Shown here in pieces: positions 2,648 to 62,720 of a stretch of 64,000 bases of DNA. The DNA lies in assembly GCF_027941775.1 (NCBI RefSeq), contig NZ_CP115917.1:664001-728000 (forward strand), written 5' to 3'. Within the stretch, counting starts at the first letter, position 1, and each line of letters starts with the position of its first letter. This DNA comes from Tenacibaculum pacificus (GTDB lineage Bacteria > Bacteroidota > Bacteroidia > Flavobacteriales > Flavobacteriaceae). The notes under the pieces were generated by a model. That model was not told where the DNA came from. It did no database searches and saw nothing but the letters and a program-made list of their open reading frames with translations. Made by a program: the position numbers and the translations under genes.

Positions 2648-2724
2648 CTTTTTTTAGGGTTTTTTTGAAAAAGGATTTTAAAGTAATACTAAATATATTT
2701 AACTAAAGAATTAAAATTAATATC

Positions 2725-3912
2725 ACGGCAAAAGAAACTTACGATCGTTCGAAGCCCCACTTAAACGTTGGTACTATTGGTCACGTAGATCACGGTAAAA
2801 CTACATTAACTGCTGCTATCACAAAAGTATTAGCTGATGCAGGATTCTCTGAAGCTAGAGATTTTGATCAAATCGATAACGCACCAGAAGAAAAAGAAAG
2901 AGGTATTACAATTAACTCTTCTCACGTTGAATATGCAACTCAGAACCGTCACTACGCGCACGTAGACTGTCCAGGTCACGCGGATTACGTAAAGAACATG
3001 GTAACTGGTGCTGCTCAAATGGATGGAGCTATTTTAGTAGTAGCTGCAACTGATGGTCCTATGCCACAAACACGTGAGCATATTTTATTAGGTCGTCAAG
3101 TAGGTATTCCTCGTATGGTTGTTTTCTTGAATAAAGTTGACATGGTTGATGATGAGGAGTTACTTGAGTTAGTGGAAATGGAAGTAAGGGAGTTATTATC
3201 TTTCTATGAGTATGATGGAGATAATGGTCCTGTGGTTTCAGGTTCGGCTTTAGGAGCTTTAAATGGTGAGGAGAAATGGGTTAATACTGTTTTAGAATTA
3301 ATGGCTGCTGTTGATGCTTGGATTGAAGAGCCTTTAAGAGAAACTGAAAAGGATTTCTTAATGCCAATTGAAGATGTATTCTCTATTACTGGTCGTGGTA
3401 CTGTTGCAACTGGTCGTATTGAAACAGGAATCATCAATTCTGGAGATCCTGTTGAGATTATAGGTATGGGTACTGAGAAGTTAACTTCTACAGTTACTGG
3501 TATTGAAATGTTCCGTCAAATCTTAGATAGAGGTGAGGCTGGAGATAATGCAGGTATCTTATTAAGAGGTATTGCTAAAGAAGATATTAAAAGAGGAATG
3601 GTTATTGTTAAGCCAGGATCTGTAACTCCACATGCTAAGTTTAAGGCTGAGGTGTATGTATTGAAAAAAGAAGAAGGTGGACGTCACACTCCATTCCATA
3701 ATAACTATCGCCCTCAGTTTTACGTGCGTACTACTGATGTGACAGGAAATATTGTTTTACCTGAAGGAGTTGAAATGGTTATGCCTGGTGATAACTTAAC
3801 TATTACTGTTGATTTAATTCAACCAATTGCATTAAACTTAGGTTTGCAGTTTGCTATCCGTGAAGGAGGTAGAACAGTAGGTGCAGGTCAGGTTACTGAA
3901 ATTTTAGACTAA
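2725..3912 (+). CDS. tuf: Elongation factor Tu, with an ACG where the start ATG is expected
   Basis: The protein matches EF-Tu from end to end (395 residues if begun at 2725): [21 protein letters not shown]1 motif GHVDHGKT, switch region EEKERGIT, G3 DCPGH, G4 NKVD, then domains 2 and 3 ending [12 protein letters not shown]-Tu carries aminoacyl-tRNA to the ribosome. The frame opens at 2707 after a TAA and holds no ATG, GTG or TTG before residue 91 (2998). The codon aligned with the normal ATG is ACG at 2725-2727, preceded by C, so the expected CATGG reads CACGG. This is either rare ACG (or upstream ATC/ATT) initiation or a sequence error, the latter favoured because ten other CATG sites in the window are altered. 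It sits in the classic order after four tRNAs and before tRNA-Trp and secE. Confidence 0.95.
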
Positions 3913-3937
3913 TTTATTAGTTTATAAATAATATAAA

Positions 3938-3969
3938 AAAAGGAGTCTCTTAAATGAGAGACTCCTTTT
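3938..3969 (+). terminator. Terminator between tuf and tRNA-Trp
   Basis: AAAGGAGTCTCT (3939-3950) pairs perfectly with AGAGACTCCTTT (3957-3968) around TAAATG, flanked by A and T runs. Readthrough or a promoter must supply tRNA-Trp and the secE operon. Confidence 0.85.
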
Positions 3970-3979
3970 AAAATAAAAT

Positions 3980-4051
3980 ACGGGCGTAGTTCAGCGGTAG
4001 AGCACTGGTCTCCAAAACCAGGTGTCGGGAGTTCGAATCTCTCCGTCCGTG
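3980..4051 (+). tRNA. tRNA-Trp (anticodon CCA)
   Basis: Acceptor ACGGGCG pairs with CGTCCGT (4044-4050, one G-T pair) with discriminator G at 4051. The anticodon stem CTGGT/ACCAG encloses CTCCAAA with CCA at 4012-4014. It lies between tuf and secE, the conserved bacterial position. Confidence 0.95.
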
Positions 4052-4059
4052 CATAATAA

Positions 4060-4090
4060 AGCGAGTTATAATGATAAATTATAGCTCGCT
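4060..4090 (+). promoter_or_regulatory. Hairpin between tRNA-Trp and secE
   Basis: AGCGAGTTATAAT (4060-4072) pairs with ATTATAGCTCGCT (4078-4090) around GATAA with a single G-U pair. No T run follows, so it is more likely an RNA processing or stabilising structure in the tRNA-Trp/secE transcript than a terminator. Confidence 0.6.
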
Positions 4091-4104
4091 AAAAGAATAA
4101 CAAC

Positions 4105-4296
4105 GTGAATAACTTTATAGAGTACATCAAGGGTTCTTTTGAAGAATTGAATACAAATATGACATGGTCTTCTCGTGAAGAAGCCCAAAAGTCTACTGTT
4201 GTAGTTGCGGCATTTACGATTGTTTTTGCTTTACTTGTAGCAGGAATAGATAGAGTTTTTCAAACAGGATTAGATAATTTCTTTAAAATGTTTTAA
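4105..4296 (+). CDS. secE: Preprotein translocase subunit SecE
   Basis: Sixty-three residues, the short single-span SecE form: an amphipathic N-terminal helix (FIEYIKGSFEELNTNMTWSS) and one transmembrane helix (about 30-50, VVVAAFTIVFALLVAGI). SecE clamps SecY in the inner-membrane SecYEG channel. It begins with GTG at 4105, the only start fitting family length. nusG follows after two bases, so the pair is translationally linked, as in most bacteria. Confidence 0.95.
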   Translation: MNNFIEYIKGSFEELNTNMTWSSREEAQKSTVVVAAFTIVFALLVAGIDRVFQTGLDNFFKMF

Positions 4297-4298
4297 TA

Positions 4299-4847
4299 AT
4301 GGCTGACTCAGTAATGAAGTGGTATGTGGTAAGAGCAGTTGGTGGTCAAGAAAATAAGGTTAAAGCCTACATCGAGACAGAAATTGCTCGTTTTGGTTTG
4401 TCTGATTTTGTAAGTAAAGTTATCGTTCCTACAGAAAAAGTTATTCAAGTAAGAAACGGAAAGAAAGTTAACAGAGAAAGAGTTTATTTTCCAGGTTATG
4501 TAATGGTAGAGGCTAATTTAGCAGGAGAAGTACCTCACGTGATAAAATCAGTAACAGGCGTTATTGGTTTTTTAGGTGAAACAAAAGGTGGTGAACCAGT
4601 ACCTATGCGTAAATCTGAAGTGAACAGGATGTTAGGAAAAGTTGATGAACTTTCTGTAAAAGATGAAAATATTGCAATTCCTTTTAACACTGGTGAAACA
4701 GTAAAAGTAATTGATGGTCCTTTTAATGGTTTTGACGGTACTGTCGAAAAAGTTAATGAGGAGAAGCGTAAGTTAGAAGTAATGGTTAAGATTTTTGGAA
4801 GAAAAACACCATTAGAGTTAAACTATATGCAAGTAGAGAAAATATAA
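4299..4847 (+). CDS. nusG: Transcription termination/antitermination factor NusG
   Basis: 182 residues with the NGN domain (from KWYVVRAVGGQENKVKAYIE to about 110) and a C-terminal KOW domain (GETVKVIDGPFNGFDGTVEK, about 128-160). It binds RNA polymerase, suppresses pausing and couples to Rho or the ribosome. It starts two bases after secE and precedes rplK by 68 nt. Confidence 0.96.
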   Translation: MADSVMKWYVVRAVGGQENKVKAYIETEIARFGLSDFVSKVIVPTEKVIQVRNGKKVNRERVYFPGYVMVEANLAGEVPHVIKSVTGVIGFLGETKGGEPVPMRKSEVNRMLGKVDELSVKDENIAIPFNTGETVKVIDGPFNGFDGTVEKVNEEKRKLEVMVKIFGRKTPLELNYMQVEKI

Positions 4848-4915
4848 TTGTTACACCTATATTTTGATGTGTTTGAAGCTTCCATTTTAAGCATATCGTT
4901 TTTAAATCTTAAACA

Positions 4916-5353
4916 ATGGCAAAAGAAATAAGTAAATTAGTTAAACTACAAGTTAGGGGAGGTGCTGCGAATCCGTCGCCACCAGTTGGACCCGCTTTAG
5001 GTGCTGCCGGTGTTAATATCATGGAGTTCTGTAAGCAGTTTAATGCTCGTACACAGGACAAGCAAGGTAAAGTTTTACCTGTTGTGATTACTGTTTATAA
5101 AGACAAATCTTTCGAGTTTGTTGTAAAAACACCACCAGCTGCAGTACAATTGTTAGAAGCGGCCAAAATTAAGAAGGGTTCGGGAGAACCAAATAGGAAA
5201 AAAGTAGCAAGTGTTTCTTGGGATCAGATTCGATTAATTGCAGAAGACAAAATGGTAGATATGAATGCCTTTAAAGTTGAATCAGCAATGAAAATGATAG
5301 CCGGAACCGCTCGTTCTATGGGATTAACAGTAACAGGTAATGCACCTGCTTAA
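4916..5353 (+). CDS. rplK: 50S ribosomal protein uL11
   Basis: 145 residues. The Pro-rich N-terminal segment [20 protein letters not shown] and the C-terminal rRNA-binding domain ending in [11 protein letters not shown] are typical of L11. It forms the GTPase-associated centre with L10 and L7/L12. rplA follows after 20 nt. The 68-nt spacer before it may carry the L1 regulatory site, but no clear mimic was recognised. Confidence 0.97.
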
Positions 5354-5373
5354 ACTTTAAAAGATATTTAGAA

Positions 5374-6063: not shown

Positions 6064-6081
6064 GCACTTAAACTTTTAATT

Positions 6082-23146: not shown

Positions 23147-24050
23147 TTATTCTTTTATAAAAGATTCAATAATGTTATTTATATCTTTTTCTTCTTTAAT
23201 TTTATCAGAAAATAAATGTTTATATAAAGGCTTATTTTCAACTTTTCTTTTTAAAGACAAATTTGTTTTTTTAGCAAATACTTTATTCCATTTATTTCTT
23301 GCCAATTTCCATTTTGGATTATTTTTAATCCACCAGTTTTGTGCTGCTTTACAACGACTATCAGCAACTTTAACATAAGTATTATAACCTTTTTCAGATG
23401 CTAGAATAATATCTTTTTCTCCTGTTTTTCTAATAATTTTTTTATTATCTTGATCATGTGCCCATCCGTAGTTTGTAATTTCACTGACGATTACCTCTTT
23501 CAGTTACATTATAATCATTTCTTTTAGTATATTCTCTACGAGGTAAGGGAGCATCAGTAGTACTTTCCCAATAACTTTTTCCATCTATATGAACCCAAGA
23601 TCCTGATCCTTCATAACGAGGACTATCATCAACTTGAAATACTTTTTGAGACCATTGTTTTTTTACGTCTTTTTTCGATTTATTTTCATACAACCAATTA
23701 TTATCACCGTTATACATGTAGAAATCTTGGTTTTGATACACCCAATCCTGTCTCCAATGTTTTACAATATGTGGTTTAGCAGGATTACCTACTTGTAACA
23801 AATGCTGAATAGCTATTTTATTATTACCATTTTTTATTAACTCAGCCCATTCTAAAGCGCTATCTTTTTTTGTTTTTGATGGTTTATATAACGAATCGTT
23901 ACTATTATTAAAAGTTTCTGCAAAATTAAAAGTTACTTCAAAACAACCACACATTTTTTTGATAGCGTCTTTATCTTTTGATTTTTTACTCTGAGCATTT
24001 ATTGTAAATATTGATAATAGTATGAAGCTTCCTAGAATTACTTTTTTCAT
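23147..24050 (-). CDS. DUF6607-like secreted protein (interrupted at 23482-23486)
   Basis: A protein of about 300 residues with signal peptide MKKVILGSFILLSIFTINAQ. The first part (24050 down to 23481) stops after NVTERGNRQ; the rest continues in the next frame as EITNYGWAHDQDNKKIIR and ends at 23147 after DINNIIESFIKE. Removing one base from CAGTGA restores NRHEITNYGW, that is an expected CATG. Known members of the family are secreted proteins of unknown function with many aromatic residues. No partner is evident; the TonB receptor gene starts divergently 90 nt upstream. The break is probably a sequence error rather than decay, since both halves are intact. Confidence 0.75.
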
Positions 24051-24140: not shown

Positions 24141-26208
24141 ATGTATCTAAATAAAAAAATATTTACTGCTTTTGCTTTTATTAGCTTAACTGTTTTTTCT
24201 CAAGAAAAAATAGTGGCTGATAATGAAAGCTTAGAAATATCTAATTTAGATGAGGTTATTGTTACTGCAACAAGAACCAAAAGACAGTTGTCATCTGTAC
24301 CGATGCCTGTAACTTTAATAACAAAAGCTCAAATAATAAAATCGGGTACAGTAAGGTTAAAAGATATTTTAGTTGAACAAACAGGAATAACTTTAGCTTC
24401 TGATTTTGGAGGTGCAAAAGGAGTTCAAATTCAAGGAATTTCTGCGGATTATATATTAATTTTAATTGATGGACTTCCAATAGTAGGACGAGCATCTGGA
24501 AATATCGATTTAAATAGAATTACAGTTAATAATATTAAACAAATTGAAATAGTAAAAGGACCATCATCTTCTTTATATGGGTCTGAAGCAATTGGAGGAG
24601 TTATTAATATTATAACAGAACAACCTAAAAATGAAAAATTAGAAGGTTTAATAAGCTATTTAGCAAAAGGAGGAGCTACAAACCAATTGGATATAAGCAC
24701 CAATGTTAAGTGGAAAAGAAAAGGTTTTGGATTGGTTTCAGGAATAAATTTAAATTCAAGTAATGGATTTGATTTATCTCCAGAAACCCTTTCAAAAACA
24801 ACAGAAGCACATCAGAATTTTACAGGTAATTTACAAGTAAGTTATGATTTTTCGAAGAATTTAAAAACCGTTGTTTCTAATAGAGTTTATAAAAAATATC
24901 AAGGTAATAATAGAGAAGGTAATAAGCAAACAGATTGGAGTGTTAATGCTAAAGTAATTCAATGAAATAACGGATAATTGGACGCTAGATTATAATTTTT
25001 ATACAACAAAATATAAAGCAGAAAGTATGTTTGATAGAAATGCTACTTTATATAATCAAACATTAACAAGACCCGAAATTAAATCGAAAAATAGCTTTAG
25101 TTCAGGAACTTTAATTGTAGGTGTTGGTGCTAATTTTGATGTATTAGAAAGAACAGAATTTACAGGGATAAAAAAATATAATACGCCATATATTTTAGGG
25201 CAATTTGATTTCAATCCAATTAAAAATTTAAATATTGTTATTGGAGCTAGATTTGAAGATAGTAATAATTACGAATCAGCTTTTACACCAAAAATAGCGA
25301 CAAGTTATAAAGTCAATAATTGGCTTACTACAAAAGCGTCGGTTGGTTGCGGATTTAAAGCTCCTGATTTTAGACAGCTTTATTTCAATTTTAGAAACTC
25401 AGCTAGTGGATATGTAGTTTTAGGTACTCAAACTTTATATGATTTATATCCTAATTTATCAGAAATAAAAACTATTGAAAAAGAATTAAAACCAGAAACT
25501 TCTATTGGTTATAATTTTGGTTTTCAGTTAAAGCCAACAACAAATTTAAAATTTAATATCAATTTTTTCAGAAATGATATTAAAGATTTGATAGATACTT
25601 TTGATACACAATTAAACGCATCTGATTTAGGATTGCCTTTAGGTACAAGAATTTATTCTTATAAAAACATAAACGAAGTTTACACTCAGGGTATTGAACT
25701 TGATGTTAATTATAAATTAAATTCAAATTTTACTGTTTTAGGAGGATATCAATTTTTAGATACAGGTGATAAAACAGCAACATCAAAAATAAAGGCTGGT
25801 GAGGTATTTTTTAGAAGAACACCGTCTTCATCATCAGAAAAAATGACAATGTCAAATTATTTCGGTTTGCCAAATCGATCTAAACATATGGCAAATTTTA
25901 AAGTTTTTTATCAAAATTATAAACACAATTTTTCTGCAAATATTAGAGCTGTATATAAAAGTAAATATGCGTTGTTTGATACTAATAGTAGTCAGGGAAT
26001 TATTGATCAATTTGATGATTTTGTTTCTTCAAACACACAAATAAATATAGCAGGAGCAAAAACATTTTTTAGCTTAATGAATTTTCAATTAGGAATAGAT
26101 AATCTTTTTAATGAAAAAGAATCTGCAAATAAAAAACGTTTTGCAAATAATGATAGTGTTTTACGTTTAGGGAGAACTTATTACTGTAATGTGCAATTTA
26201 ATTTTTAA
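24141..26208 (+). CDS. TonB-dependent outer-membrane receptor (interrupted at 24960-24964)
   Basis: About 690 residues: signal peptide MYLNKKIFTAFAFISLTVFS, plug domain (DEVIVTATRTKRQLSSVPMPV, QGISADYILILIDGLPIVGR, VKGPSSSLYGSEAIGGVINI) and a barrel ending in a C-terminal aromatic (YYCNVQFNF). The first frame stops after NAKVIQ at 24965; the barrel resumes in the next frame as EITDNWTLDYNFYTTKY. Deleting one base from CAATGAAA gives CATGAAA and a continuous IHEITDNW. BtuB/HmuR-like receptors import cobalamin, haem or iron chelates. The HmuY-type lipoprotein just downstream favours haem. Confidence 0.87.
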
Positions 26209-26230: not shown

Positions 26231-26866
26231 ATGAATATTTTAAAGTCAATTCTAATAATAACAATACTTACTTTTATTACTGTTTCATTGTAGTGATAAT
26301 AATGATACATTACCAGAAGAATCAATATCTAAAAGAATAGAGAATTTATATGCACAACAAACTACTGATTATTCGGTAAATCCACCAAAAGCTTCTGGAG
26401 AATTTATTAAATTTAGTTTTAAAAAAGGAGCAATTGTAACCGATGATAATTGGGATATTGCTTTTAGAGCAACAACAATTATAGTAAACGGAGGAGAAAG
26501 TACAGGTATAAAAGAAGAACCTAATAAAACAGGAAATGCATCTTTATTATTAGTTGATGGAACATTTTCGAGTGTAAAAACAATACCTGATAATGCTATT
26601 TTTAAACAAGATGCAAAAGAAGGAGTTTTAGCATTGCCAAAAAGTACTTGGTATACTTATAATATGGCAGATCATAGTATTAATCCTGTAGCTGGAAAAA
26701 TAATTATTGTAAGAACAATAGATGGTAATTATGCTAAAATGGAAATTTTAAGTTACTATAAAGATATGGATAGTTCTAATTCTGCTGATCCTCAAAATTC
26801 AGGAGGACAATATTACACTTTTAACTATGTGTATAACCCTAATACTGGAGATAAAAATCTTCAATA
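26231..26866 (+). CDS. HmuY-family lipoprotein (interrupted at 26286-26290)
   Basis: ATG 26231 encodes a hydrophobic signal segment (MNILKSILIITILTFITVS) that stops at TAG 26291. One base later, frame 3 begins with Cys (CSDNNDTLPEES) and runs 192 residues to 26866. CATTGTAG read as CATGTAG restores a lipobox cysteine directly after the signal segment. The mature part has HmuY-family blocks: WDIAFRATTIIVNGGES, WYTYNMADHSINPVAGKIII and GGQYYTFNYVYNP. HmuY captures haem at the cell surface for the HmuR receptor, and here follows a TonB receptor by 22 nt, so a haem uptake pair is inferred. Confidence 0.82.
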
Positions 26867-26936: not shown

Positions 26937-29728
26937 TTAAGTTATTTTTTCGGCTAAATAACTAGCTGTAAACGATTTTTTGTTTTTTGCTAATTCTTCA
27001 GGAGTTCCTGTGAAAATAAGGTTTCCTCCATTTTTTCCACCTTTTAAACCAAGTTCTATTATATAATCGGCACACTTTATTAATTCAATATTGTGTTCAA
27101 TTACAATAATAGAATGTCCTTTGTCTATTAAAGCATTAAAAGATGTTAATAATTTTTTAATATCATTGAAAATGAAGTCCTGTTGTTGGTTCATCAAAAA
27201 TAAATAAAGTTTTATCTTTTGTATTTCCTTTCATCAAAAATGAAGCTAATTTTATACGTTGCGCTTCTCCTCCAGATAATGTTGATGATGATTGTCCTAA
27301 TTGTACATAACCTAATCCAACGTCTTGCAAAGGTTTTAATTTACGAGCAATTTTATGTTGTTCTCGTTCATCGAAAAAAGTAATTGCATCATCAATAGTT
27401 AGGTTTAAAATATCATCGATTGATTTTTTACCGAAAGTAACTTCTAAAACTTCTTTTTTAAAGCGTTTTCCTTGGCAAGTATCACATTGCAAGTGTACAT
27501 CTGCCATAAATTGCATTTCAATAGTAACTTCACCTTCACCTTTACAAACTTCACAACGTCCGCCTTCTACATTAAAAGAAAAATGTTTTGGCTGATAATT
27601 TCTGATGCTCGATAATTTTTGATCAGATAATAATTTACGAATATCATCATAAGCTTTTATATAAGTTACAGGATTAGACCTTGAAGAACGCCCAATAGGA
27701 TTTTGATCGATAAATTCAACATTTTTTATATTTTCAAAACTTCCTGTAATATCAGTAAATTGACCTACTTTTTCGCCATATCCAACGAGCTTTTTCTGCA
27801 TTGCAGGATATAAAATTTTCTTAACCAAGGTGCTTTTTCCACTTCCAGAAACACCTGTAATAACAGTTAAGGTATTCAACGGAAAAGAAACATCAATATT
27901 TTTAAGATTATTTTCACGAGCACCAATAATATTGATGGTGTTTTTTGAGTTTCTACGTATTGTAGGGATTTCAATTTTTAATTCTTCGGATAAATACTTA
28001 GCTGTTAAAGAGTCGGATTTCATAATATCATCAAAAGTACCTTCAGCAACTACGTTACCACCGTAAGTTCCTGCTTCTGGACCTATATCGATAATATAAT
28101 CGGCTTCTTTCATAATATCTTCATCATGTTCAACTACAATAACGGTGTTTCCTAAATCACGTAAATCTTTAAGTACATCAATTAATTTTTCGGTATCTTT
28201 TGGATGTAAACCAATACTAGGTTCATCTAAAATATACATAGAGCCAACAAGTGAACTTCCTAATGATGTTGCTAAGTTTATTCGTTGACTTTCACCTCCA
28301 GAAAGTGTGTTTGAAGTTCTATTTAAGGTTAAATAATTTAAGCCAACATCAGTTAAAAATAGCAAGCGATTTTTAATTTCGGTAAGTAATCGTTTTCCTA
28401 TTGCTAATTCGTGTTCATTTAGTTTTAAATTATTGAAAAACACTGATAATTCATCTAAAGGAAGTGTTACTAAATCTGAAATTACTTTTTCAATGTACGT
28501 GTACATAATTAGCTTCTTTTCGAAGTCTTTTTCCGTTACAATCGTTACAAGTTGTTTTTCCGCGATAGCGAGAAAGCATTACTCTATTTTGAATTTTATA
28601 GCTTTTTTCTTCTAGTTTTTTGAATAAATCGTGTATTCCTTCAAACTTATTCGTTCCGTTCCAAACTAATTCTTTTTGAATTTCAGAAAGCTCAAACCAA
28701 GGTTTATGAATAGGGATATTAAAATCGACAGCATTTAAAATTAAGTTTTCTTTATAAATTTTATAGCTATCTGTTTTAAAAGGAAAAATAGCATCTTCAA
28801 ATATTGACAACCCTGTATTTGGAATTACTAATTCTTCATCAATACCAATTACGCTTCCGTAACCTTCGCAAGTAGGACAAGCTCCGTACGGATTGTTAAA
28901 ACTGAATAAATGTGTATTAGGTTCTAAAAAAGTAATGCCATCTAACTCAAATTTATTACTAAATTCGGTAACGGTTTTTTCATTTAAGTTTTCAATAAAA
29001 CAAACTCCTTTTCCTTCAAAAAAAGCAGTTTGAATAGCATCACCTAATCGATTATAAAAATCTTCTTCATTTTTAGTAACAATTCTATCAATGACTAAAA
29101 AGAAATCTTCATTATTAAAATTATCAATAGGAAAATCTTCAATTCTTAAAACGTTATTATTAAATTTTAAACGAGCATATCCTTGTTGAGTTAAAACTTG
29201 TAAAACAGTTTTTAAATCTCTATTTTTATTGATGATAATTGGAGCTAATAATAAAAGTTTGGTACGTTCTTCAAAATTTTTTACATGATTAAGAACATCA
29301 GAAACCGTATGTTTTTTTACTTCGCTACCTGATATTGGTGAAATAGTTTTACCAATACGAGCATATAATAATTTTATATAATCGTAAATTTCGGTTGAGG
29401 TTCCTACAGTTGACCTCGGATTTGTTGAATTTACTTTTTGCTCAATAGCAATTGCAGGAGCTATTCCTTTTATATAATCTACTTTTGGTTTGTTTAATTT
29501 TCCTAAAAATTGACGAGCGTATGATGATAAACTTTCTACATAACGTCTTTGTCCTTCGGCATATAAAGTATCAAAAGCCAATGATGATTTTCCAGAACCT
29601 GAAAGCCCTGTTATTACTACTAGTTTATTTCTAGGGATAACAACATCAATGTTTTTTAAATTATGGAGTTTTGCTCCTTTTATAATGATGTTTTCTTTGG
29701 GATTGATGCTAGAAAGGTCTCTTTTCAT
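26937..29728 (-). CDS. uvrA: UvrABC excision nuclease subunit A (two interruptions)
   Basis: Three abutting frames (29728-28490, 28506-27163, 27197-26937) together give a full-length UvrA of about 930 residues. Visible are the two Walker A motifs [12 protein letters not shown] and [12 protein letters not shown], signature [12 protein letters not shown] and [12 protein letters not shown], Walker [11 protein letters not shown] and [10 protein letters not shown], and zinc-module cysteines ([16 protein letters not shown] with CDTCQGKR). It recognises DNA lesions for nucleotide excision repair. The downstream break is an extra base: TTTTCAATGATA where TTTTCATGATA gives the family sequence GLHFHDIKKLL. 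The upstream break, around 28495-28503 (GTACACGTACATT), also needs one base removed and is not at a CATG. An essential repair gene broken twice in intact sequence points to assembly error. Confidence 0.9.
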
Positions 29729-34163: not shown

Positions 34164-34796
34164 TTATAAACGGTTTTCTATCCATTTTTGAAAACTGTAA
34201 AAATTTTGAGGAGCAACACCACGTCCTACTGGGTATTCTGAATAATCATTTTTTAAATTATTAGCATTTAAAAATACAGGTGCTCTTCTTGCCCAATCAA
34301 CAGGAATTACTTGGTCAACAGTTCCGTGAGAAATATAATAATCAGTATCACTTTTTGTTATATTTTCAGGAATTAATCCTTCATTAAGATGACCACTTAA
34401 AGCAATTACATGTTGTACTTTATTAGGGTAATTAAAACTCAAAGCATAACTTAAAATAGCTCCTTGACTAAAACCTAATAAAAATGTTTTATCAGGATTC
34501 GTGTTGTATTTTGTTTTAATTTCATCAATAAAATCTGAAACTTTATCAACAGATTCTTTTGCTTCTTCTAAATCAGAAAATTTTTCATCATTAGCATCAA
34601 AATTAATTGCATACCAAGCAAAAGCACCACCACCTATAGTATAAGGTGCTTGTGCGCTAACAATTAGCATATTATCAGGTAATTCTTGAGCAAATGAAAA
34701 TAAATCTTCTTCATTACTACCATATCCGTGTAATAAAATTAATAATGGTGGATTAGTAGTTGCCTGTTTAGGCTCTCTTACAATATAATTTAACAT
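34164..34796 (-). CDS. Alpha/beta-hydrolase of the carboxylesterase/phospholipase (YpfH) family, catalytic His replaced
   Basis: 210 residues: oxyanion motif LLHGYGSNEEDL, nucleophile elbow GFSQG with S110, acid D161 in HGTVDQVIP. The catalytic His is expected in a GHG(V)xP motif near the C terminus, but the sequence reads VGRGVAPQNF with R192. The codon is CGT; one base change to CAT would give both the His and a CATG tetranucleotide. Either the enzyme is inactive or this is one of the CATG-site anomalies of the window. Substrate unknown. Confidence 0.87.
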   Translation of the reverse strand: MLNYIVREPKQATTNPPLLILLHGYGSNEEDLFSFAQELPDNMLIVSAQAPYTIGGGAFAWYAINFDANDEKFSDLEEAKESVDKVSDFIDEIKTKYNTNPDKTFLLGFSQGAILSYALSFNYPNKVQHVIALSGHLNEGLIPENITKSDTDYYISHGTVDQVIPVDWARRAPVFLNANNLKNDYSEYPVGRGVAPQNFYSFQKWIENRL

Positions 34797-35145: not shown

Positions 35146-36405
35146 TTATATATTTAAAATTAATTGTTTATTGTTGTAAATCCCATATACTTTTCCTTTT
35201 AGCTTTTTATCTAAAAAAACACTGTTTTTTGAAGTAGATAAAATATCTTCTTCAGTAAAAATAGACGTTCCTTCAGGATTGAAAATAGATAAATTAGCAA
35301 CTTCATTTTCGTTGATACTTGCTTTTTGAATACCAAAACGTTCTTTTGGATTATCAGATAAACAAGTTACAATTGTTTCTAAATCTAATACAGAATTTAA
35401 AACTCCAAAAGCAGTTTCTAAACCGATAGTTCCATCTTTTGCACTTGAAAACTCTACTTTTTTATGTTCTATATCAATCGGATTATGATCAGAAGTAATT
35501 ATATCAATCGTTCCATCTTTAACTCCTTTTAATAATGCTTTGATATCATCCGAAGTTCTTAAAGGTGGATTTACTTTTTTATTTCCATCAAATTGATGTA
35601 ATTCATCATCTGTTAAAAATAAGTTATGAATGGCTACACTACAGGTAACATCCAATCCTTTCTTTTTACCTTCTTTAATTAATTGTACTGATTTTTTAGT
35701 TGAAATGGTAGGAATGTGTAATTTTCCGCCTGTATATTCTAATAAAAATAAATCACGAGAAATTTGTAATTCTTCAGCTAAAGCAGGGATTCCTTTTAAA
35801 CCTAAAAGAGTACTGTTTTTACCTTCATGAACAACACCTTCTCCAGCAATTGCGTTGTTTTTAGGAAAACTAAGTGCTAATCCGTTAAAATTTTGGGTAT
35901 AAAGTAAGGCTACTTTTAGTAAATTATCATTTGCTATTGGTTTTTTATAATCACCAAAAGCGATAGCACCAGATTGTTGCATGTCATATAATTCCGCCAT
36001 TTCAATACCTTTCGATCCTTGAGTTAACGTACCGATTGGGTATACATTTGTAGCAAATCCGTTGGCTCTATAAATTAGAAATTCAACAGCTGCTTTGTTA
36101 TCAATAACAGGATTTGTATTTGGGTTTACAGCAATATCTGTAAATCCGCTTTTACCAGCTACTTGTAAACCATTTTTAATAGTTTCACGTTCTTCATATC
36201 CTGGTTCACCTAAAGAAACACTGGTGTCAAACCAACCTGTAGAAACATGTAAATTATCAAGTTTTATAATTTGATATTCTTCTTTATCGGTAATATTACT
36301 ATCAATTTTAGTAATAATTCCGTCAGTAATTAAAATATCTTTAGTTTGTTGGTGGTAAGGGCTATGCGCATCAATAATAGTTGCCGATTTTAATAGCGTT
36401 GTCAC
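35146..36405 (-). CDS. pyrC: Dihydroorotase (fused in frame to the upstream gene by one extra base)
   Basis: About 420 residues of the amidohydrolase superfamily, beginning TTLLKSATIIDAHSPYHQQT. It matches flavobacterial dihydroorotase: VSTGWFDTSVSLGEPGYEER, KSGFTDIAVNPNTNP, GGKLHIPTISTKKS, CSVAIHNLFLTDDEL, NPPLRTSDD and ITSDHNPIDIEHK. It would cyclise carbamoyl-aspartate in pyrimidine synthesis. The HxH metal pair after the second strand is replaced (DTSVS), as in noncanonical dihydroorotases. As written, its frame continues into the BatA-like gene with GTG at 36403-36405. If CAGTGA were CATGA, the upstream gene would stop at TGA and pyrC start at the overlapping ATG, the common ATGA coupling. 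Confidence 0.85.
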   Translation of the reverse strand: MTTLLKSATIIDAHSPYHQQTKDILITDGIITKIDSNITDKEEYQIIKLDNLHVSTGWFDTSVSLGEPGYEERETIKNGLQVAGKSGFTDIAVNPNTNPVIDNKAAVEFLIYRANGFATNVYPIGTLTQGSKGIEMAELYDMQQSGAIAFGDYKKPIANDNLLKVALLYTQNFNGLALSFPKNNAIAGEGVVHEGKNSTLLGLKGIPALAEELQISRDLFLLEYTGGKLHIPTISTKKSVQLIKEGKKKGLDVTCSVAIHNLFLTDDELHQFDGNKKVNPPLRTSDDIKALLKGVKDGTIDIITSDHNPIDIEHKKVEFSSAKDGTIGLETAFGVLNSVLDLETIVTCLSDNPKERFGIQKASINENEVANLSIFNPEGTSIFTEEDILSTSKNSVFLDKKLKGKVYGIYNNKQLILNI

Positions 36406-38346
36406 TGGTTTAAAGAATTTTAAGATCAAAATTTCAACAAGCAAAGATACAATGGCAATCACTAAAAACCATTTCCAAAGCCATTGAATTTTGTATTCGT
36501 TGTTACTATTTATTAACGTTTGCTTTACTGATGTAGAAATTTTTTGGTTTTCAGTAGTTGTAATATCTAAAAAGTTTAACAAGCTTTCTTTCTTCGGATA
36601 ATTAAAAGCAATATTTTTTAAAATATTTTCTTGTTGTTTTATTTGATAAAATCCAGCTGTTAATGGTTGGTTTTTTGTTGTGATTTTTACACTATTTTGA
36701 AGTGTTTGTTGTAGCGGAATAAATGAAATTTCATTATTTGAAATCGATAGTACTTCATTTTTAGAAATAATCTTATCAATAGAAATAACATTTTGTTTAT
36801 CAGTAATATAATATCCTTTAGATAGTTGTAAACTTTGTTTTCCGATGGTATAAAAAACAGGAACAATTAAAGGCGAATTTATAAAATTACTTTCTTCTTT
36901 ATTAAGCGGAGATGCTAAAAAATACACTTTTGAATTCACCGTATTTATTTGTTGTATAAATGGTTTTTTGTTTTCAAAAGAAACAATAGTATTGGTGTTT
37001 TTAAAAGTAGTATTATAAGCTGTTTTTACAAAAGGATATTGAAAATTACGCACTTTTTTCTCAAACACATTTTTAAATAATGGATGTTTGTAATTAATAT
37101 CTGTAATTTTTAAGCTATCATTTTTTTGATTGTCATTTAATGAGTTGATATTTCCTATTTCAAGTCGATTTAATAAACTATTATAAGAAGAAATTGTTGC
37201 ATTTTTAGATGGAATAATAACTAAATTTCCACCTTTTTTAGAGTAATCAATTAGACTTTTTATGAGTGTTTCTGATAAATTATCAATTTCATTTAAAACA
37301 ATAAGATGTTGTTTCGGAATTAAATTATAATTTAAATTTTGTGTATTTAAAGCTGTAAAATCAAATTCATCATCACTATAAATTCGTTTTAAAAAGTTAG
37401 CATTTTTACCAATAGACAAAACTTTAATTTTAGAATTTGTATTAATCGCGAAATAAAAAGAATTATCAAACGAATAAGTATCTTTAAAATTTAATTCAAT
37501 TTTACCTAAAAAATCGAAAGTATTAACAATCGAAAAAACAACTTTTTTAGTTTCATTTTTTTCGATAGAAAACAGCTGTTTATTTATTAATTTTTCTTTG
37601 TTGTAGATAGCAATAGGAACTTCTTTTTTTGCATTTCCTTGATTTTTAACAACAATTTGTATTTCGAAATTACTTGAATTATTTGTATTTACAAAAACAC
37701 TATCAATAGATAAATTATTTTTTTCTTGCGGATTTAATTTTACGAAAGAAGTATTTTTAGGTAACTGATTAAGTACTGTGTTTTTTACATTCTGAAAATC
37801 AGAAATAATAATATTTTTAGTATTTTTATTTTTTAGTTGCTCACTCGAAATTTTTAATAATACAGTTTCTAAAGCTGTTTTTTTAGCCGTATTTTTAATT
37901 TCTAACAAAATATTTTTTAATTCTGAAGCTGTTTTATTTTGATGATAAGCATCATTTGTTAGCAAAGAATACATTGCTTTTTCTGAAGTGTTTTCAATAA
38001 TTTCTTGTGATGATACTTGTAATAAATCACCTTTTTCACCTGCTGTATTTGTACTTAATGAATTATCTAAATAAATAAAAAAATGTTGTTGTTCATCACT
38101 TTTATGATTGCTAAAATAAGGTTGTGCAAAGGCTAAAATTAAAGCGGTAAGCAATAATAAACGAGTTGCTAAAATCAGCCATTTTTTTATGCGTGAACTT
38201 TTTCGGGTTTGTGTTACTAATTTTTTTAAAATAGCAACATTGGTAAATGTAACTTTTTCAAAACGTTGTAATTGAAATAAGTGAATCAATATCGGAATCA
38301 GTAAAAAAAATAAAAAATATAAAATTTCAGGATGTTTAAATTGCAT
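36403..38346 (-). CDS. BatA-domain membrane protein with von Willebrand-like region
   Basis: About 645 residues. N-terminal BatA domain with two membrane segments (ILYFLFFLLIPILIHLFQLQ; LILATRLLLLTALILAFAQPYF), then a VWA-like domain (HFFIYLDNSLSTNT, KNIIISDFQ), a long periplasmic part with Ig-like strands, and a C-terminal membrane span (WKWFLVIAIVSLLVEILILK). BatA-type proteins stand before pyrC in many Flavobacteriia. The apparent 1066-residue fusion with dihydroorotase (junction KFFKPV-TTLL) is best explained by one extra base at 36403-36407. Function unknown; role in the cell envelope inferred. Confidence 0.8.
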
Positions 38347-38657: not shown

Positions 38658-38709
38658 AACCATGATTATAAATGATAATGATTGTAAACTTCAAGAAAAA
38701 ATAAGTACA

Positions 38710-40302
38710 TTGAAAGTAACACACATTCCTTTTAAAAAGACTGGTTTTTTCTCTAAAACAATGTTAGATTACTTAGAGCAATCTCCTGAAATAAAACCTT
38801 TTTATGCTAATTTTTCATCTTCAGAAGGATTTAAAAATCAAATAAAAACTAAAAAAGCCACTTTTTCAATAGAAAAAAGAAAAACGCTTGTTAAAGTTTT
38901 AGAAAAACAATATTTAAAAGTAACAACAACAGCAAATACGGCTCAAAATATTGCTAGTTTATCTTTAGAAAATACTTTTACAATAACCACAGGACATCAG
39001 TTAAATTTATTTACAGGACCGTTATATTTTTTATATAAAATAATTTCTGTTATTAATTTATGTGAAGATTTAAAGGCTAAAAATCCGAAGGAAAATTTTG
39101 TTCCTATTTATTGGATGGCAACAGAAGACCATGATTTTGATGAAATTAATTACTTCAATTTTAAAGGTAAAAAAGTACAATGGAATTCTACGCAAACAGG
39201 TGGAGTAGGACGTTTTTCAACAGAAGGATTAGCAGATGTTTTAGAGGTTTTATCGAATCATTTAGGAACATCAAAAAATGCAGAATATCTAAAGAAATTA
39301 TTTGAAGAAGCATATATAAAGTGTGCTAATTTAGCCGATGCAACTCGTTATATTGCCAATGAATTATTTGGAGAATACGGTTTGGTAATTATTGATGCAG
39401 ATGAACGAGAGTTAAAACGTGAATTTATTCCGTTTATAGAAACAGAATTAAAAAATCAAACATCGTATAAAAAAGTTACAGAAACGATTAAATCTTTAGG
39501 TGAAAATTATAAAATTCAAGTAAATCCGAGAGAAATTAATTTATTTTATTTAACAGATGAAATTCGAGAGCGTATTATTTATGAAGATGATACTTATAAA
39601 GTAAATGACACAAATATTTCTTGGAATTTAGATGAATTATTAAAAGAAGTTCATGAATTTCCTGAGCGATTTTCGCCAAATGTAATTATGCGTCCGTTGT
39701 ATCAAGAAGTGATTTTGCCGAATCTTTGCTATGTTGGTGGAGGTGGAGAATTAGCTTATTGGTTAGAATTAAAAAGTTATTTTGAAGAAGTTAAAGTGCC
39801 TTTTCCAATTTTATTATTACGAAATTCGGCACAAATAATTTCTGAAAAACAAGCTGGTAAATTAGATAAATTATCAATTTCATTAGAAGAGATTTTTTTG
39901 AAACAAAATATCTTACTTAAAAATAAAATATTAGAAGTATCCGAAGAAAAAATAGATTTCACCAAACAAAAAGAGTTTTTAAAAGAACAATTTTTTAGTT
40001 TAAAATCCTTTGCCGAAAAAACAGATATATCGTTTGTAGGAGCTGTAAATGCACAAGAAAAAAAACAATTAAAAGGATTAGATAATTTAGAAAAACGTTG
40101 GTTACGAGCAGAAAAACGCAATCATAAAAATTTGGTAGATAGAATTACATTATTACAAAATGAAATATTACCAAATGGAAGTTTAGAAGAGCGTCAGCGT
40201 AATTTTTCTGAATATTATTTATCCTATGGAAATACTTTAATAAAAGAGTTAAAAAAAGGCTTAAAACCTTTACAATTAGAATTTACAGTACTGATATTTT
40301 AG
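38710..40302 (+). CDS. bshC: Bacillithiol biosynthesis cysteine-adding enzyme BshC
   Basis: About 530 residues. From TTG 38710 the protein begins LKVTHIPFKKTGFFSKTMLDY, the family N terminus; the in-frame ATG at 38662 would add 16 residues but sits at the likely transcription start. Signature parts: TTGHQLNLFTGPLYFLYKI, FVPIYWMATEDHDFDEINY, RPLYQEVILPNLCYVGGGGE and a long C-terminal coiled coil. BshC adds cysteine to glucosaminyl-malate to make bacillithiol. rlmF begins directly at the next base after the stop. Confidence 0.93.
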   Translation: MKVTHIPFKKTGFFSKTMLDYLEQSPEIKPFYANFSSSEGFKNQIKTKKATFSIEKRKTLVKVLEKQYLKVTTTANTAQNIASLSLENTFTITTGHQLNLFTGPLYFLYKIISVINLCEDLKAKNPKENFVPIYWMATEDHDFDEINYFNFKGKKVQWNSTQTGGVGRFSTEGLADVLEVLSNHLGTSKNAEYLKKLFEEAYIKCANLADATRYIANELFGEYGLVIIDADERELKREFIPFIETELKNQTSYKKVTETIKSLGENYKIQVNPREINLFYLTDEIRERIIYEDDTYKVNDTNISWNLDELLKEVHEFPERFSPNVIMRPLYQEVILPNLCYVGGGGELAYWLELKSYFEEVKVPFPILLLRNSAQIISEKQAGKLDKLSISLEEIFLKQNILLKNKILEVSEEKIDFTKQKEFLKEQFFSLKSFAEKTDISFVGAVNAQEKKQLKGLDNLEKRWLRAEKRNHKNLVDRITLLQNEILPNGSLEERQRNFSEYYLSYGNTLIKELKKGLKPLQLEFTVLIF

Positions 40303-51552: not shown

Positions 51553-52477
51553 ATGAAGTTATTTTTGAATATAATCTTAGTATTTGTCTTTAGTATTTGT
51601 GCATTAACAAATGTAACAGCACAGCAAGATCCTCAATATTCACAGTATATGTATAATACTATGAATGTAAATCCTGCCTATGCAGGTTCTAAAGACTTTG
51701 GTGTTATTACAGTTTTAGGAAGAACGCAGTGGGTTGGTTTTGAAGGTGCTCCAAAAACTCAAAATATAAGTTATCACACTCCGTTAGGGGATTCTGGATT
51801 AGGTTTAGGAATTAATATAATGAATGATGAAATTGGTCCTTCAAAAGAAATTTATTTAGATGCAAACGCATCATATACCATTGAAACCGATTTAGAAGGT
51901 AATTTAGCTTTTGGTTTACGTTTAGGAGGACGTTTTTTGAATATTGATTGGAGTAAAGGAAAGGCTGATGAGCAAGAAGCTGTTTTTGGAGAAAATATAA
52001 GTAAATTTTTACCAACTATTGGAGCAGGGATTTATTATTATAAACCAGAATGGTATGTTGGATTATCAGTGCCTAATATTTTAAGGTCAGAACATTATGA
52101 TAATAAAAAACAGTTAGGGCAAACAGCTGTTGAAAAAATGCATTTTTTCTTAATAGCAGGGTATGTGTATGATATAAATTATGATTTAAAATTTAAACCA
52201 GCACTACTAGTAAAAGCTGTTTCAGGAGCTCCTTTATCTTTAGATGTATCGGCTAATTTATTGTTTAAAGAAAAATTTAGAGCAGGTTTAGGATGGAGAT
52301 GGGATGACGCTATAAGTGCTCTTTTAGGTTTTCAAGCATCGGAAAGTTTACTTGTTGGGTATTCATACGATTTAACAACATCTAATTATAATGTAACAAA
52401 TTCAGGAACTCATTGAAATTATGTTACAATACGAATTATCAAGAGGTGTAAAATATAGATCTCCTAGATTCTTTTAA
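51553..52477 (+). CDS. PorP/SprF family type IX secretion membrane protein (interrupted at 52411-52415)
   Basis: About 308 residues. Signal peptide MKLFLNIILVFVFSICALTN; an ATG at 51517 would add 12 residues before it. The start of the mature part QQDPQYSQYMYNTMNVNPAYAGS is diagnostic of PorP/SprF. As written the protein stops after NSGTH at 52416; in the next frame EIMLQYELSRGVKYRSPRFF ends at 52477, the family C terminus. CATTGAAATT read as CATGAAATT restores GTHEIMLQYE. Such proteins bind the periplasmic side of surface-attached adhesins secreted by T9SS. The OmpA partner gene starts two bases later. Confidence 0.92.
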
Positions 52478-58678: not shown

Positions 58679-58680
58679 AT

Positions 58681-58731: not shown

Positions 58732-59791
58732 TTAAAATTTTTGATTAGCAGCTGCACTAATTTGTTTAATATCTTGTTCATCTTTTTTAGGACAAATTAA
58801 AATAACATCTTCTTTTTCTACAATAATAAAATCATTTAAACCTTGAATGATTATTTTTTTACCACTTTCTGTGCTAACCATATTTCCGTTTGCATCTCTA
58901 AAAATAGCATTTGCGCCTACAACAGCATTTTGCTGAGTATCTTTATTTAATTTTTGATATAACGAACCCCAAGTTCCTAAATCGTTCCATCCAAAATCGA
59001 CGGGTAGTATATGTACATTATTTGAAGGTTCCATAATTCCGTAATCAATCGAAATATTTTCACATTTCTCATAATTATTTTTTATAAACTTACTTTCATC
59101 ATTAGTATTATAAACAGTAGTACTGTTTAAAGTAGTTAACATATTTGGTAAATGAGTTTTAAAAGCATTTAAAATACTTTTTGTAGACCAAACAAAAATA
59201 CCTGCATTCCATAAATAATCGCCACTAGCTAAAAATTCTTCAGCTTTTACTATGTTTGGTTTTTCGGTAAAGTTTTTTACTTTTTTAATTTCTGAAATAT
59301 TTTCTTCAAACTTAATATAACCATAACCTGTATTTGGAGCATCAGGCTGAATACCTAATGTCATTAAAATATCATTTTTAACTGATGCTTCAAAGCTTGT
59401 TTTTATATTTCTTAAAAATTCAGTTTCGTCTTCAATCCAGTGGTCTGAAGGAGCAACTAACATTACAGCATCAGGATTTTTACTATTTATTTTTAAAGCA
59501 GCATATAAAATACACGGAGCTGTATTACGCATTGCTGGCTCTAACAATAATTGTTTTTTTGTGGTTTTTAGTAACTGTTTTAAAACTAATTCTTCGTAAC
59601 GTTCATTTGTTGAAATTAAGATGTTTTCAGCAGGAATTAATTGATTAATTCGATTAAAAGTACGTTGAATTAATGATTCTCCAGTACCTAACATATCATT
59701 GAAATTGTTTTGGGTATTCTTGTGTGCTTACAGGCCAAAACCTAGAGCCAATACCACCTGCCATAATTACTGCGTAATAATTGTTATTCAT
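58732..59791 (-). CDS. manC: Mannose-1-phosphate guanylyltransferase (interrupted at 59697-59701)
   Basis: About 352 residues. From ATG at 59789-59791 the protein begins MNNNYYAVIMAGGIGSRFWP with the nucleotidyltransferase loop GGIGSRFWP, then stops after YPKQFQ. In the next frame it continues DMLGTGESLIQRTFNRINQL and runs to the end, with VAPSDHWI, TGYGYIKFEE and FGWNDLGTWGSL. CAATGATATG read as CATGATATG restores the family motif KQFHDMLG. It makes GDP-mannose for surface glycans. Both parts are intact, so the break is probably not biological. Confidence 0.92.
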
Positions 59792-59810
59792 AAGCTGTTA
59801 ATTTTTTTAA

Positions 59811-60399
59811 TTATAGATTTACTACTTCTGTATTTTGATTAAAAAGATACACCCGTTTATTTGTTAAATTTAAGCATTCATAAAGTGTTCTTCGTTTATT
59901 TCCTTTTTTATAGATGTTATCTTTAAATTTAAAAGTAGTTCCTTTTATAATTTCAAAGATAAATTTTTTACCATTTTCAGCTTTTCCACCTCGTAAAGCT
60001 AATGATAAATGAATATCAGAGTCGGTACTTGCTTTTGGGTTTTTAAGATAATTAGCTAAGTAAGGAAGCATTTTCTTCGGATAAATAGCAGGATGTAAAA
60101 AAGGTAGCATTAAATGTTGAAAAACGGTTTTCCAATGTCTTCCGTGAGGTTGTACTAGTCCAAATTTTTTATGCGTAACATGATGTGCAATTTCATTGAA
60201 TTAACGTTAATAAAAATTGATGCTTATTTAAATTATTATTAACTGTTATTTGTGTTTCTCCGTTTGAAAAAGTTCTAAAATCACCATGTTTACTTTGTCG
60301 TTGATTTACAATTTTTAGGTTGATTTTATGGTCGTTAATTAAATATTCAACTAACGGAACAGCTTTTTCAGGGATATATTTTTGGAGTATAGCTTGCAA
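59811..60399 (-). CDS. SprT-like zinc metalloprotease family protein (interrupted in HExxH)
   Basis: About 196 residues. The first frame (60399 to 60193) ends LNKHQFLLTLIQ; the second continues EIAHHVTHKKFGLVQPHGRH and on to EVVNL at 59811. CAATGAAATTGC read as CATGAAATTGC restores LLTLIHEIAHHVTH, the HExxH zinc motif, with the third ligand likely in PHGRHWKTVF. SprT-like proteins resemble the DNA-protein crosslink protease SPRTN. Located between manC and a terminator of the SDR unit. Confidence 0.85.
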
Positions 60400-60442
60400 A
60401 TTTTATTTGTTCGAATGATTTTATTTTGAAATTAAATATAAG

Positions 60443-60494
60443 AAAAAAAATTGTATCAAGAACTAGCGAACTAATTTCTTAATACAATTTTTTA
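60443..60494 (-). terminator. Terminator after the SDR gene
   Basis: AAAAAATTGTATCAAGAA pairs with TTCTTAATACAATTTTTT with one mismatch, 47 nt beyond the SDR stop on the minus strand. Confidence 0.7.
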
Positions 60495-60540
60495 GTAACG
60501 AATATTAAATTAAAATTATTCTAAAAAATAATCGATTTTT

Positions 60541-61224
60541 TTATGGATTAGAGCTAGAAACTTGTAATACTTTTCCGTTGTAAAATTTGTTTCCTGTTAA
60601 TGAAAAATCAAAAATATAATCTGCCATTTCTTTTGCTGATAAAGGAGCAACATAACCAGGAAAAGCTTCTTCAAGCATTTCTGTTTGTACAGCACCTAAA
60701 GCTAAAACATTAAAAGCGATTTGTTGTTCTTTATATTCTTCAGCTAATAATTCTGATAAAGTAATTACTGCACCTTTTGCCGAGCTATAAGCTGCTAAAC
60801 CAGGGAATTTTAAGCTTCCTTGAATTCCGCCCATAGAACTAACAGTAACAACATGACTTCCTTTTTGCATAAACGGAATCATGTTTTTTGTTAACTCAGC
60901 AACAGCAAAAACATTCACTTTATAAACTTCTTCAAAATCAGAAGTTGTTAATTCTTCAAATGGTTTGTTGATTAATTTCCCAGCATTATTTATTAAAATA
61001 TCTACTTTATTCCATTCTTTTTTAATAAAATCGGTAGCTTTTTTTAAATCATCATTATTTGATAAATCAACAGATAATGTTGTTATGTTTTTATTATTTA
61101 CAGCTTCTAAAGGTTTTGTATTTCTTGATAAAGCTAATACATTATTTCCTTCGTTTGCAAATTTTTGAGCTAATTCAAAACCAATTCCTCGGCTAGTTCC
61201 TGTAATTATTATGTTTTTACTCAT
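60541..61224 (-). CDS. Short-chain dehydrogenase/reductase
   Basis: 227 residues: cofactor motif IITGTSRGIGFELAQKF, DILINNAGKLINKPFEEL with NNAG, catalytic Ser in VSSMGGIQG, and Y-x3-K in AYSSAKGAVITL. Substrate unknown. Its start overlaps the end of the beta-helix lipoprotein gene by eight bases (ATGAGTAA), so both are translationally coupled. Confidence 0.9.
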   Translation of the reverse strand: MSKNIIITGTSRGIGFELAQKFANEGNNVLALSRNTKPLEAVNNKNITTLSVDLSNNDDLKKATDFIKKEWNKVDILINNAGKLINKPFEELTTSDFEEVYKVNVFAVAELTKNMIPFMQKGSHVVTVSSMGGIQGSLKFPGLAAYSSAKGAVITLSELLAEEYKEQQIAFNVLALGAVQTEMLEEAFPGYVAPLSAKEMADYIFDFSLTGNKFYNGKVLQVSSSNP

Positions 61225-62720
61225 CTTTAAAAGTTATATGTTGATATGCTCCAATGTCAGTGTTTGGTAATCGGCTAACGCCTAAAATATCTTCTGAAAC
61301 AGCAGAAGATTTTGCTTTATTAATGGCATCGGAATCTTCTCCGATATTAAAATCATTTAAAATGATGTCTTTAAAATTAGGTGTTCCGTTTAAAATAATA
61401 TTTTGATAATGTAGGATATCATCAAAATTTAATTCTTTATTGTTTTTGAAAGAGTTATTAAAATCATTAAATCGAATCATTGAGTTTTCGATATTGTAAT
61501 TAAAGACTGTTTCATCTCGTTTATCTAAAATAAATTCAATATTATTAGTTCCTTCTATAATACAATTAGTAAAATTAGCGAGAGTTAAATCATTTGTGTC
61601 AGTTTTTACTTCATCATTACTATCAATAGATGTAAAATAATTATTGATTAAAACAGTCGGCGATTGACGTATGCTATAATTCCAATAATTCGCAAAAGTT
61701 GAATGTGTAAAAGTGTAATTACCGCCAAAAGTACAAGCTAAAGAGTTTTGTCCTGCGTTTCCGATAACAATATTTTCACCTTTAATATAGGTGTTTTTTC
61801 CTAAGATTCCATAATTAGAACTGTTATAAATTTCAGAGTTTTTGATAGAAAGTGTAGGTGATGTTTCTGTACCTTCAACTAAAAGACCGATTGTTCCATT
61901 TCTGATAATCGTATGATTAATTTCATTTTCGATACTTCCTTCACGCATCCAAATACTTCCCCATTGACCAGGTATTTTACTATAACGATATTCTAACCTG
62001 TCTCCTTCAAAAGTTACTTTTTTATCAAGTGTTCCCTTAATTTTTAGGCTAGCTTTTTTATCAATAATTAAACCTGAATTTTTATGGAAATAAATTTTTG
62101 CACCAGCATTAATAGTTAATGTTTTATTCGAAGGAACAGTAGCATAACCATAAATAACATATGACCTTTCATCAGTAAAATTTAATTCATCATCAGTTAA
62201 AAATCGACCTTGAATATCGGTGCTTTCGCCATCAATAATTATGGTTTCGATTTCTGTGTTTTTTTTTGATGGAAATATAAAATAAGCATCTTGTATTAAA
62301 GTAACTAAATCAACATTTTGCTGATTGTTTCCATTATCAAATAATAATTTATCAGTATATAATGGATCTGAAACAGTGTTAAAATCGACGGTAGTTTCTA
62401 TAAAAACATACATACTATCATTTGCTAAAAGATCGATATCAGCAAAATGTTTTCCTGATAATCCATCAACATTTAAACGATATTTTGAATCGATTCCGTT
62501 TTCTAATTTAATTTCAGGAATTGTAATTGATTTATTACTTCTATTATAGACTTTTAAACTGTAAGTAGTAGAGCCGATATTTGAAAAAATAGTATCTAAA
62601 AATACGGTATCTTTTGAGAATTCTAACTTTCCAAAATTAGGAATTGTATTAAAATCTTTTCTACATTGAACTAACAACAATTAAAATAATAATAGATAAA
62701 ATTAGTAGTAAATATCTCAT
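61217..62720 (-). CDS. Right-handed parallel beta-helix lipoprotein (interrupted at 62664-62668)
   Basis: About 500 residues. ATG at 62718-62720 gives MRYLLLILSIIILIVVSS and then TAG; the next frame goes on CRKDFNTIPNFGKLEFSKDT. CAATGTAG read as CATGTAG restores the lipobox SSC. After an Ig-like domain (about 20-130) a parallel beta-helix follows (KTLTINAGAKIYFHKNSGLI; GSIENEINHTIIRNGTIGLL; YNSSNYGILGKNTYIKGENI), ending with a SRLPNTDIGAYQH motif typical of choice-of-anchor repeats in Bacteroidota. Surface-exposed; ligand or substrate unknown. Confidence 0.83.

Follow-up and report, generated by a model that had tools for sequence, protein, structure and literature searches.

The window analyzed here is a stretch of 64,000 nucleotides, positions 664001–728000 of the one 2,791,743-base contig (NZ_CP115917.1) in the RefSeq assembly of Tenacibaculum pacificus (GCF_027941775.1; genome completeness 95.5%). 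At a series of places in the window, conserved genes are broken or lose a key codon at a word that reads as CATG with one base inserted between A and T (CA[N]TG) or with one base substituted (CACG). A first-pass annotation had named eleven such words, nine insertions and two substitutions, and had ascribed them to miscalled modified adenines in a long-read consensus; all eleven are present. The direction of the insertions relative to other genomes, a scan of coding frames, its hold-out, and the rates by sequence context strongly support systematic long-read consensus errors that mimic gene breaks, and the organism itself very probably does not carry these breaks. The words are listed below, with what aligned relatives read at the same place.

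2724..2727, plus strand: CACG (substitution) at the EF-Tu start, making the start codon ACG; 6 of 6 aligned relatives read ATG
23482..23486, minus strand: CACTG, breaking the frame of a DUF6607 protein; 4 of 4 relatives read CATG
24960..24964, plus strand: CAATG, break in a TonB-dependent receptor between plug and barrel; 1 of 4 relatives reads CATG
26286..26290, plus strand: CATTG near a gene start; 2 of 4 relatives read CATG, and the relatives are one base shorter
27164..27168, minus strand: CATTG, second UvrA break, cutting off the C-terminal end; 4 of 4 relatives read CATG, a count that omits one spurious 66% alignment
28491..28495, minus strand: CAATG, first UvrA break, seen in alignment with relatives; absent from the first-pass annotation
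34220..34223, minus strand: CACG (substitution) in an Abhydrolase_2 esterase (PF02230); relatives read CGTG (3) or CATG (1), a weak case
36403..36407, minus strand: CACTG at the BatA/dihydroorotase junction; 4 of 4 relatives read CATG
38708..38712, plus strand: CATTG at a gene start, also absent from the first-pass annotation; 4 of 4 relatives are shorter by one base and read AATG (3) or TATG (1), hence a weaker case
52411..52415, plus strand: CATTG at the open-frame end of a PorP/SprF-family gene; 2 of 2 relatives are without the extra base
59697..59701, minus strand: CATTG, with the N-terminal part of ManC lost; 320 amino acids (aa) here, the profile match starting at 32
60194..60198, minus strand: CATTG in a gene that had been called SprT-like; frame-switch cluster at 60175–60206, no alignment
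62664..62668, minus strand: CATTG close to where an unnamed protein starts; one poor alignment, insertion unverified

Affected genes in the window

Six of the nine insertions listed in the first-pass annotation were recovered by local alignment with relatives (23482, 24960, 26286, 27164, 36403, and 52411). The insertion at 59697 is supported by the length of ManC, that at 60194 by the frame scan alone, and that at 62664 has only the poor alignment. At the EF-Tu gene, the first frame opening with ATG starts at a point 91 residues inside the family profile, and the alignment with relatives also shows an A lost just upstream of the ACG; on these comparisons the ACG start is very likely a sequence error. 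The DUF6607 family (PF20311) matched only the first piece of its gene, at profile positions 2–175 of 296. The plug of the TonB-dependent receptor is encoded in one frame and the barrel in the next, and relatives have intact copies. At 26286 the insertion is seen in the alignment, and the earlier lipoprotein label for this gene is unverified.

The pieces of UvrA in the window match residues 2–412 and ~413–854 of the 929-aa UvrA of T. salmonis, and at both boundaries the CA[N]TG word coincides with a histidine codon. BatA and dihydroorotase appear fused in one 1066-aa frame, with BatA at residues 1–76 and dihydroorotase from ~650. The PorP/SprF-family gene covers profile positions 2–267 of 273 and has intact copies in relatives; neither of the two relatives aligned at 52411 reads CATG, both having CACG. 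No Pfam match was found for either piece of the gene at 60194, leaving the SprT-like name unconfirmed, and the protein at 62664 had no Pfam match.

Insertions at CATG relative to other genomes

Relatives were aligned with blastn, and uncompensated frame-changing gaps were counted inside the open frames of the relative. Plus-one gaps fell at CA[N]TG in 10 of 13 cases in one comparison and 7 of 13 in another, the rest being mostly A/T-rich or near gene ends. Against six reference sets, CATG in the relative faced CA[N]TG in this genome at 13 of 486 aligned sites, and the reverse was seen at 0 of 344. The first-pass annotation had proposed comparing CATG with other palindromes for frame breaks, and CATG proved enriched: seven other palindromes containing G or C gave such central gaps at 0 of 4,859 sites, and A/T-only palindromes gave few in either direction (towards this genome, ATAT 1, AATT 6, and TTAA 7).

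The six reference sets overlap, so these counts are not independent. When each site was counted once over nine reference sets, 13 of 217 CATG sites carried the insert, the count being limited to sites with CATG or CA[N]TG in this genome. The rate depended strongly on context: 11 of 50 sites within [ACT]CATGAA, 1 of 61 where only [ACT]CATGA was present, and 1 of 106 elsewhere ([ACT]CATGAA versus all other CATG, 11/50 and 2/167, Fisher p 2e-6).

Coding-frame scan without a reference

A codon-usage scan that locates same-strand changes of coding frame was run, for which no reference is needed. Across 704 kb, 129 plus-one places were found, and CA.TG was present in 30 of these against 9.6 expected, ranking first of 136 words; with the window left out, the figures were 26 of 117 places against 8.7. 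The enriched words were of the form CA[N]TGA. The longer context was derived from 41 sites preselected for a following A and was then tested on 320 kb of unused sequence, where 9 of 45 places contained [ACT]CA.TGAA (null mean 0.6, p 0.0005). Over all unique plus-one places it occurred in 35 of 170 (null 2.0), and CA.TG outside [ACT]CA.TGA in 1 of 170. In the stretches sampled, the pattern is one of the whole genome and not of the window alone. A consistent counterpart of this signature was not found when seven control relatives were scanned in the same way, the counts for [ACT]CA.TGAA being 2 of 58 (G128), 3 of 29 (G131), 2 of 11 (G076), and none in the other four.

CA.TG was also in excess among minus-one clusters (18 of 115 against 7.6; 9 of 39 against 2.3 in the hold-out). 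Part of this excess is due to repeat copies, as 153 clusters reduce to 140 unique ones. At three loci (L163 ~17660–17730, L165 ~18315–18390, and L111 ~9155–9230) an identical short sequence carries a minus-one frame change; programmed frameshifting in an insertion sequence may be responsible.

Sequence context of the inserted base

The extra base sits between the A and the T, at the dyad of CATG, and in 45 oriented sites it was T in 29, A in 7, G in 6, and C in 3. A G preceded the word at 0 of 41 broken sites versus 86 of 445 intact ones; in the 45-site set, G-preceded sites are excluded by selection. Within [ACT]CATGAA the strong effect was confined to the next base, which was A at 33 broken and 75 intact sites and a base other than A at 12 broken and 147 intact sites. 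Among the 24 positions examined, weaker differences were present at +6 (p 0.004), -9 (p 0.03), and -8 (p 0.05). A bipartite type I motif was not supported, there being no clear distal context. The earlier description of the breaks as falling exactly at CATG was thus too broad, the insertions lying in [ACT]CATGAA or nearly so, and to judge by these base frequencies the context looks like a base-calling effect rather than a long recognition site, though a motif of the CATGAA type may also be involved.

The assembly and related genomes

According to PMC9864904, ten isolates from salmon were sequenced on Nanopore R9.4.1 alone, with Guppy 6.0.1 as the base caller; Trycycler was used for most of the assemblies, every one was polished with Medaka, and rpiB set the orientation of circular chromosomes. 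For isolate 18-2881-A, the proposed T. pacificus, the result was a single 2.79-Mb contig, ~88% identical to T. dicentrarchi. In the contig analyzed here rpiB (PF02502) starts at the very last base, in agreement with that orientation. It is near certain that the record is the R9.4.1-only, Medaka-polished assembly of 'T. pacificus' 18-2881-A, made without accurate short reads, and the reading of the breaks as artefacts agrees with this published method. A second paper from 2025, PMC12617846, reports T. salmonis P3-BQ1 (GCA_041053065.1) as a hybrid Nanopore and Illumina assembly that is conspecific with T. pacificus (96.58% OrthoANI), with completeness of 97.77% for the T. pacificus assembly versus 99.16% for the hybrid. 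The paper also states that culture collections lack strain 18-2881-A.

Two genes, UvrA and ManC, were checked in related assemblies. Both are full-length in the hybrid, conspecific T. salmonis and also in T. retecalamus, apparently isolate 18-3228-7B of the same Nanopore-only study; UvrA is full-length in a T. dicentrarchi contig, apparently isolate 18-3141 of that study. ManC has 352 aa in T. salmonis (the species being an inferred assignment) and 352–353 aa when T. retecalamus is included. Among the UvrA matches listed for the genus, a short open frame occurs only in this genome (471 aa) and in G102 (545 aa). Since UvrA and ManC are full-length in T. retecalamus, the fault seems, on these two genes, to be tied to the strain and not to the pipeline.

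The same lengths bear on an explanation without any DNA modification, in which the base caller or Medaka errs at unmodified HCATGAAA (H being A, C, or T). Such an error would fit the asymmetric context, which is expected of a pore effect, and the grading of the insert with the following A-run. The full-length UvrA of T. retecalamus and T. dicentrarchi and the full-length ManC of T. retecalamus, lengths of two genes only, speak against it, and we consider it quite unlikely.

Real mutations, whether pseudogenes, phase variation, or restriction-driven selection against CATG sites, might be read from the scarcity of CATG, which occurs 65 times in the window versus 146 expected from shuffles and whose observed/expected ratio of 0.54 in this genome is the lowest of nine sets. 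Depletion is also found in the eight other sets, which come from this and related genera (0.56–0.73), so it is not the signal, and it was rejected as a sign of error. The broken genes are moreover conserved ones (UvrA twice, the dihydroorotase junction, ManC, and others), the insert never departs from a single position in a single word, and the conspecific T. salmonis has UvrA and ManC at full length. On these grounds restriction escape and real mutation were rejected as a cause and are, in our estimation, highly improbable.

Depletion of CATGAAA was also tried as a direct count of errors and proved weak, its rate varying among relatives and being lower still in a Polaribacter set. Four other palindromes are strongly under-represented in the window plus 640 kb, with observed/expected ratios of 0.14 for CCGG, 0.25 for GGCC, 0.36 for GATC, and 0.44 for CGCG, several relatives being alike; this under-representation perhaps reflects restriction avoidance.

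Two further breaks were noted. Compared with four relative sets, the A run at window positions 17132–17141 lacks one base. The gene put out of frame by this loss has, in its first part, a match to the N-terminal domains of a cation-transport ATPase; this break is a homopolymer deletion, usual for Nanopore assemblies. Near rpiB, a gene that is kinase-like by eye is split into two overlapping open reading frames (L238 3920–4614; contig G000:C1 ~2789920–2790620), probably another assembly error.

Candidate methyltransferases

The first-pass annotation had predicted that the genome would encode an adenine methyltransferase for a CATG-containing motif and had called for a search, which found a D12 methylase, a type IIG enzyme, and a type I HsdM. 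Intact adenine methyltransferases are thus present, and none of them was assignable to CATG. The D12 adenine methylase (PF02086) is an intact 279-aa open frame on the minus strand (G000:C1:1824982-1825815), the one found in this genome with that family, and it is directly followed by a short protein of the thymidylate synthase family (PF00303) within L143 644–2124 (G000:C1 ~1824340–1825820). A gene recognized by eye as encoding collagen-like repeats lies nearby. The setting is phage-like, and such a cassette might serve to make or protect modified bases. The nearest homologue among the matches listed is 94% identical and from T. salmonis; absence of the methylase from relatives was ruled out, as homologues occur in G101 (78%) and G147 (72%). 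Its identity to 12 copies of Bacteroides phage D12 methylases (p00 and others) among the matches listed is 49–50%, with 97% of the candidate's length aligned. Unlike those phage copies, the candidate sits on a Tenacibaculum chromosome beside a thymidylate-synthase-like gene.

The D12 enzyme is the best candidate, as a four-base palindrome suits it best, with the type IIG enzyme as the alternative. The latter is an open 1079-aa frame at G000:C1 ~1280 kb that matches the type IIG model with 1,173 bits. It stays in play because the error context is asymmetric, and it could modify an asymmetric motif that contains CATGAA, the breaks still being sequencing errors. Around HCATGAA, however, no further base is fixed except for the graded A that comes next, and 222 HCATGAA sites are intact in 1.02 Mb, so that modification by the type IIG enzyme appears unlikely.

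A C5 DNA methylase is split over two frames (L235 1207–2453; G000:C1 ~1891640–1892890), with an excisionase-like domain ahead of the first piece. No CA[N]TG word lies where its frames overlap, and this break is hence of another kind. Two weaker Eco57I matches look by eye like TrmN6 and PrmC, which we take to be housekeeping methylases. No match to PF01555 was found in this genome, the search having covered the methylase families named here. PF05315, which we take to represent ICEA, that is, NlaIII-like endonucleases, had no match in this genome or in any control.

Proposed explanation

Modification of DNA at CATG is a likely cause of the errors, and the explanation we consider probable as a whole combines R9.4.1-only consensus errors, N6-methylation of CATG, and the D12 enzyme. 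The adenines of CATG would be N6-methylated on both strands in this strain. A base caller untrained on the mark would read the disturbed current as one extra base, mostly T, before an A-run, and Medaka would retain the majority call. The enzyme responsible may, with less assurance, be the phage-type D12 adenine methylase.

Several observations weigh against this explanation. The first-pass annotation had counted T-to-C substitutions among the errors, and this predicted class is not enriched, CATG having become CACG or CGTG at 68 of 486 sites towards this genome versus 52 of 344 in reverse. (Where three relatives agree, 10 CATG sites comprise 8 intact, 2 with insertions, and none with a substitution, which is too few.) Even in the favored context, [ACT]CATGAA, 39 of 50 sites show no insert, and this context lacks the symmetry of the palindromic CATG. 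G147 carries the 72% D12 homologue, yet is without the signature (the sequencing method of G147 is not known), and G076 is the sole control to depart from the null (2 of 11 against 0.3, p 0.037). Finally, a smaller minus-one excess of [ACT]CA.TGAA persists among unique clusters (7 of 140 against 1.3), which may represent two nearby insertions.

Extent and implications

Consensus errors at modification motifs outside the training of base callers are documented, and the present case appears to be a clear new instance of this known artefact. PMC6591954 reports Nanopore consensus errors at Dcm sites in Klebsiella pneumoniae, PMC10687267 reports mismatches in Listeria at GCAGC and GCTGG motifs, and PMC12392509 reports that only part of the occurrences of a motif is affected. 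The Dcm and Listeria cases resemble ours in that one short motif is involved, occurrence is partial, and errors survive Medaka; strains from the same pipeline differ there, as they seem to do here on two genes. Unlike the Listeria mismatches, the error here is a one-base insertion at the center of a palindrome, which breaks frames, and the modification is a presumed one. PMC10689673 describes CATG methylation in Helicobacter pylori by an hpy gene product, visible to Nanopore sequencing; this is the same four-base word in another phylum, a likeness by word and not by comparison of enzymes. A prior description of CATG insertions was not found in literature titles and abstract openings, which is no proof of absence from print.

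The number of false breaks was estimated in two ways. Combining the 222 intact [ACT]CATGAA sites in 1.02 Mb with the rate of 11 in 50 gives ~60 broken sites in that sample and ~170 in the genome. From 38 scan matches, less ~5 by chance and with about half of the positions scorable, ~190 are obtained. As a rough inference, the false frame breaks of this kind in the assembly would number 170 to 190.

The affected assembly is the record of the proposed type strain of the fish-associated 'T. pacificus', since judged conspecific with T. salmonis. There, false breaks can pass for pseudogenes, truncated proteins, or fused genes, and they may lower completeness. Other Nanopore-only genomes can be flagged by this test, which can also indicate modification motifs. 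We propose, tentatively and as a possibility that remains somewhat doubtful, that the insertion scar [ACT]CA^TGAA is a footprint of CATG N6-adenine methylation and by itself reveals the specificity of a phage-borne clade of D12 enzymes, one found in Bacteroides phages as well. If this is true, old R9.4.1-only assemblies could be mined for methylation motifs without the raw signal.

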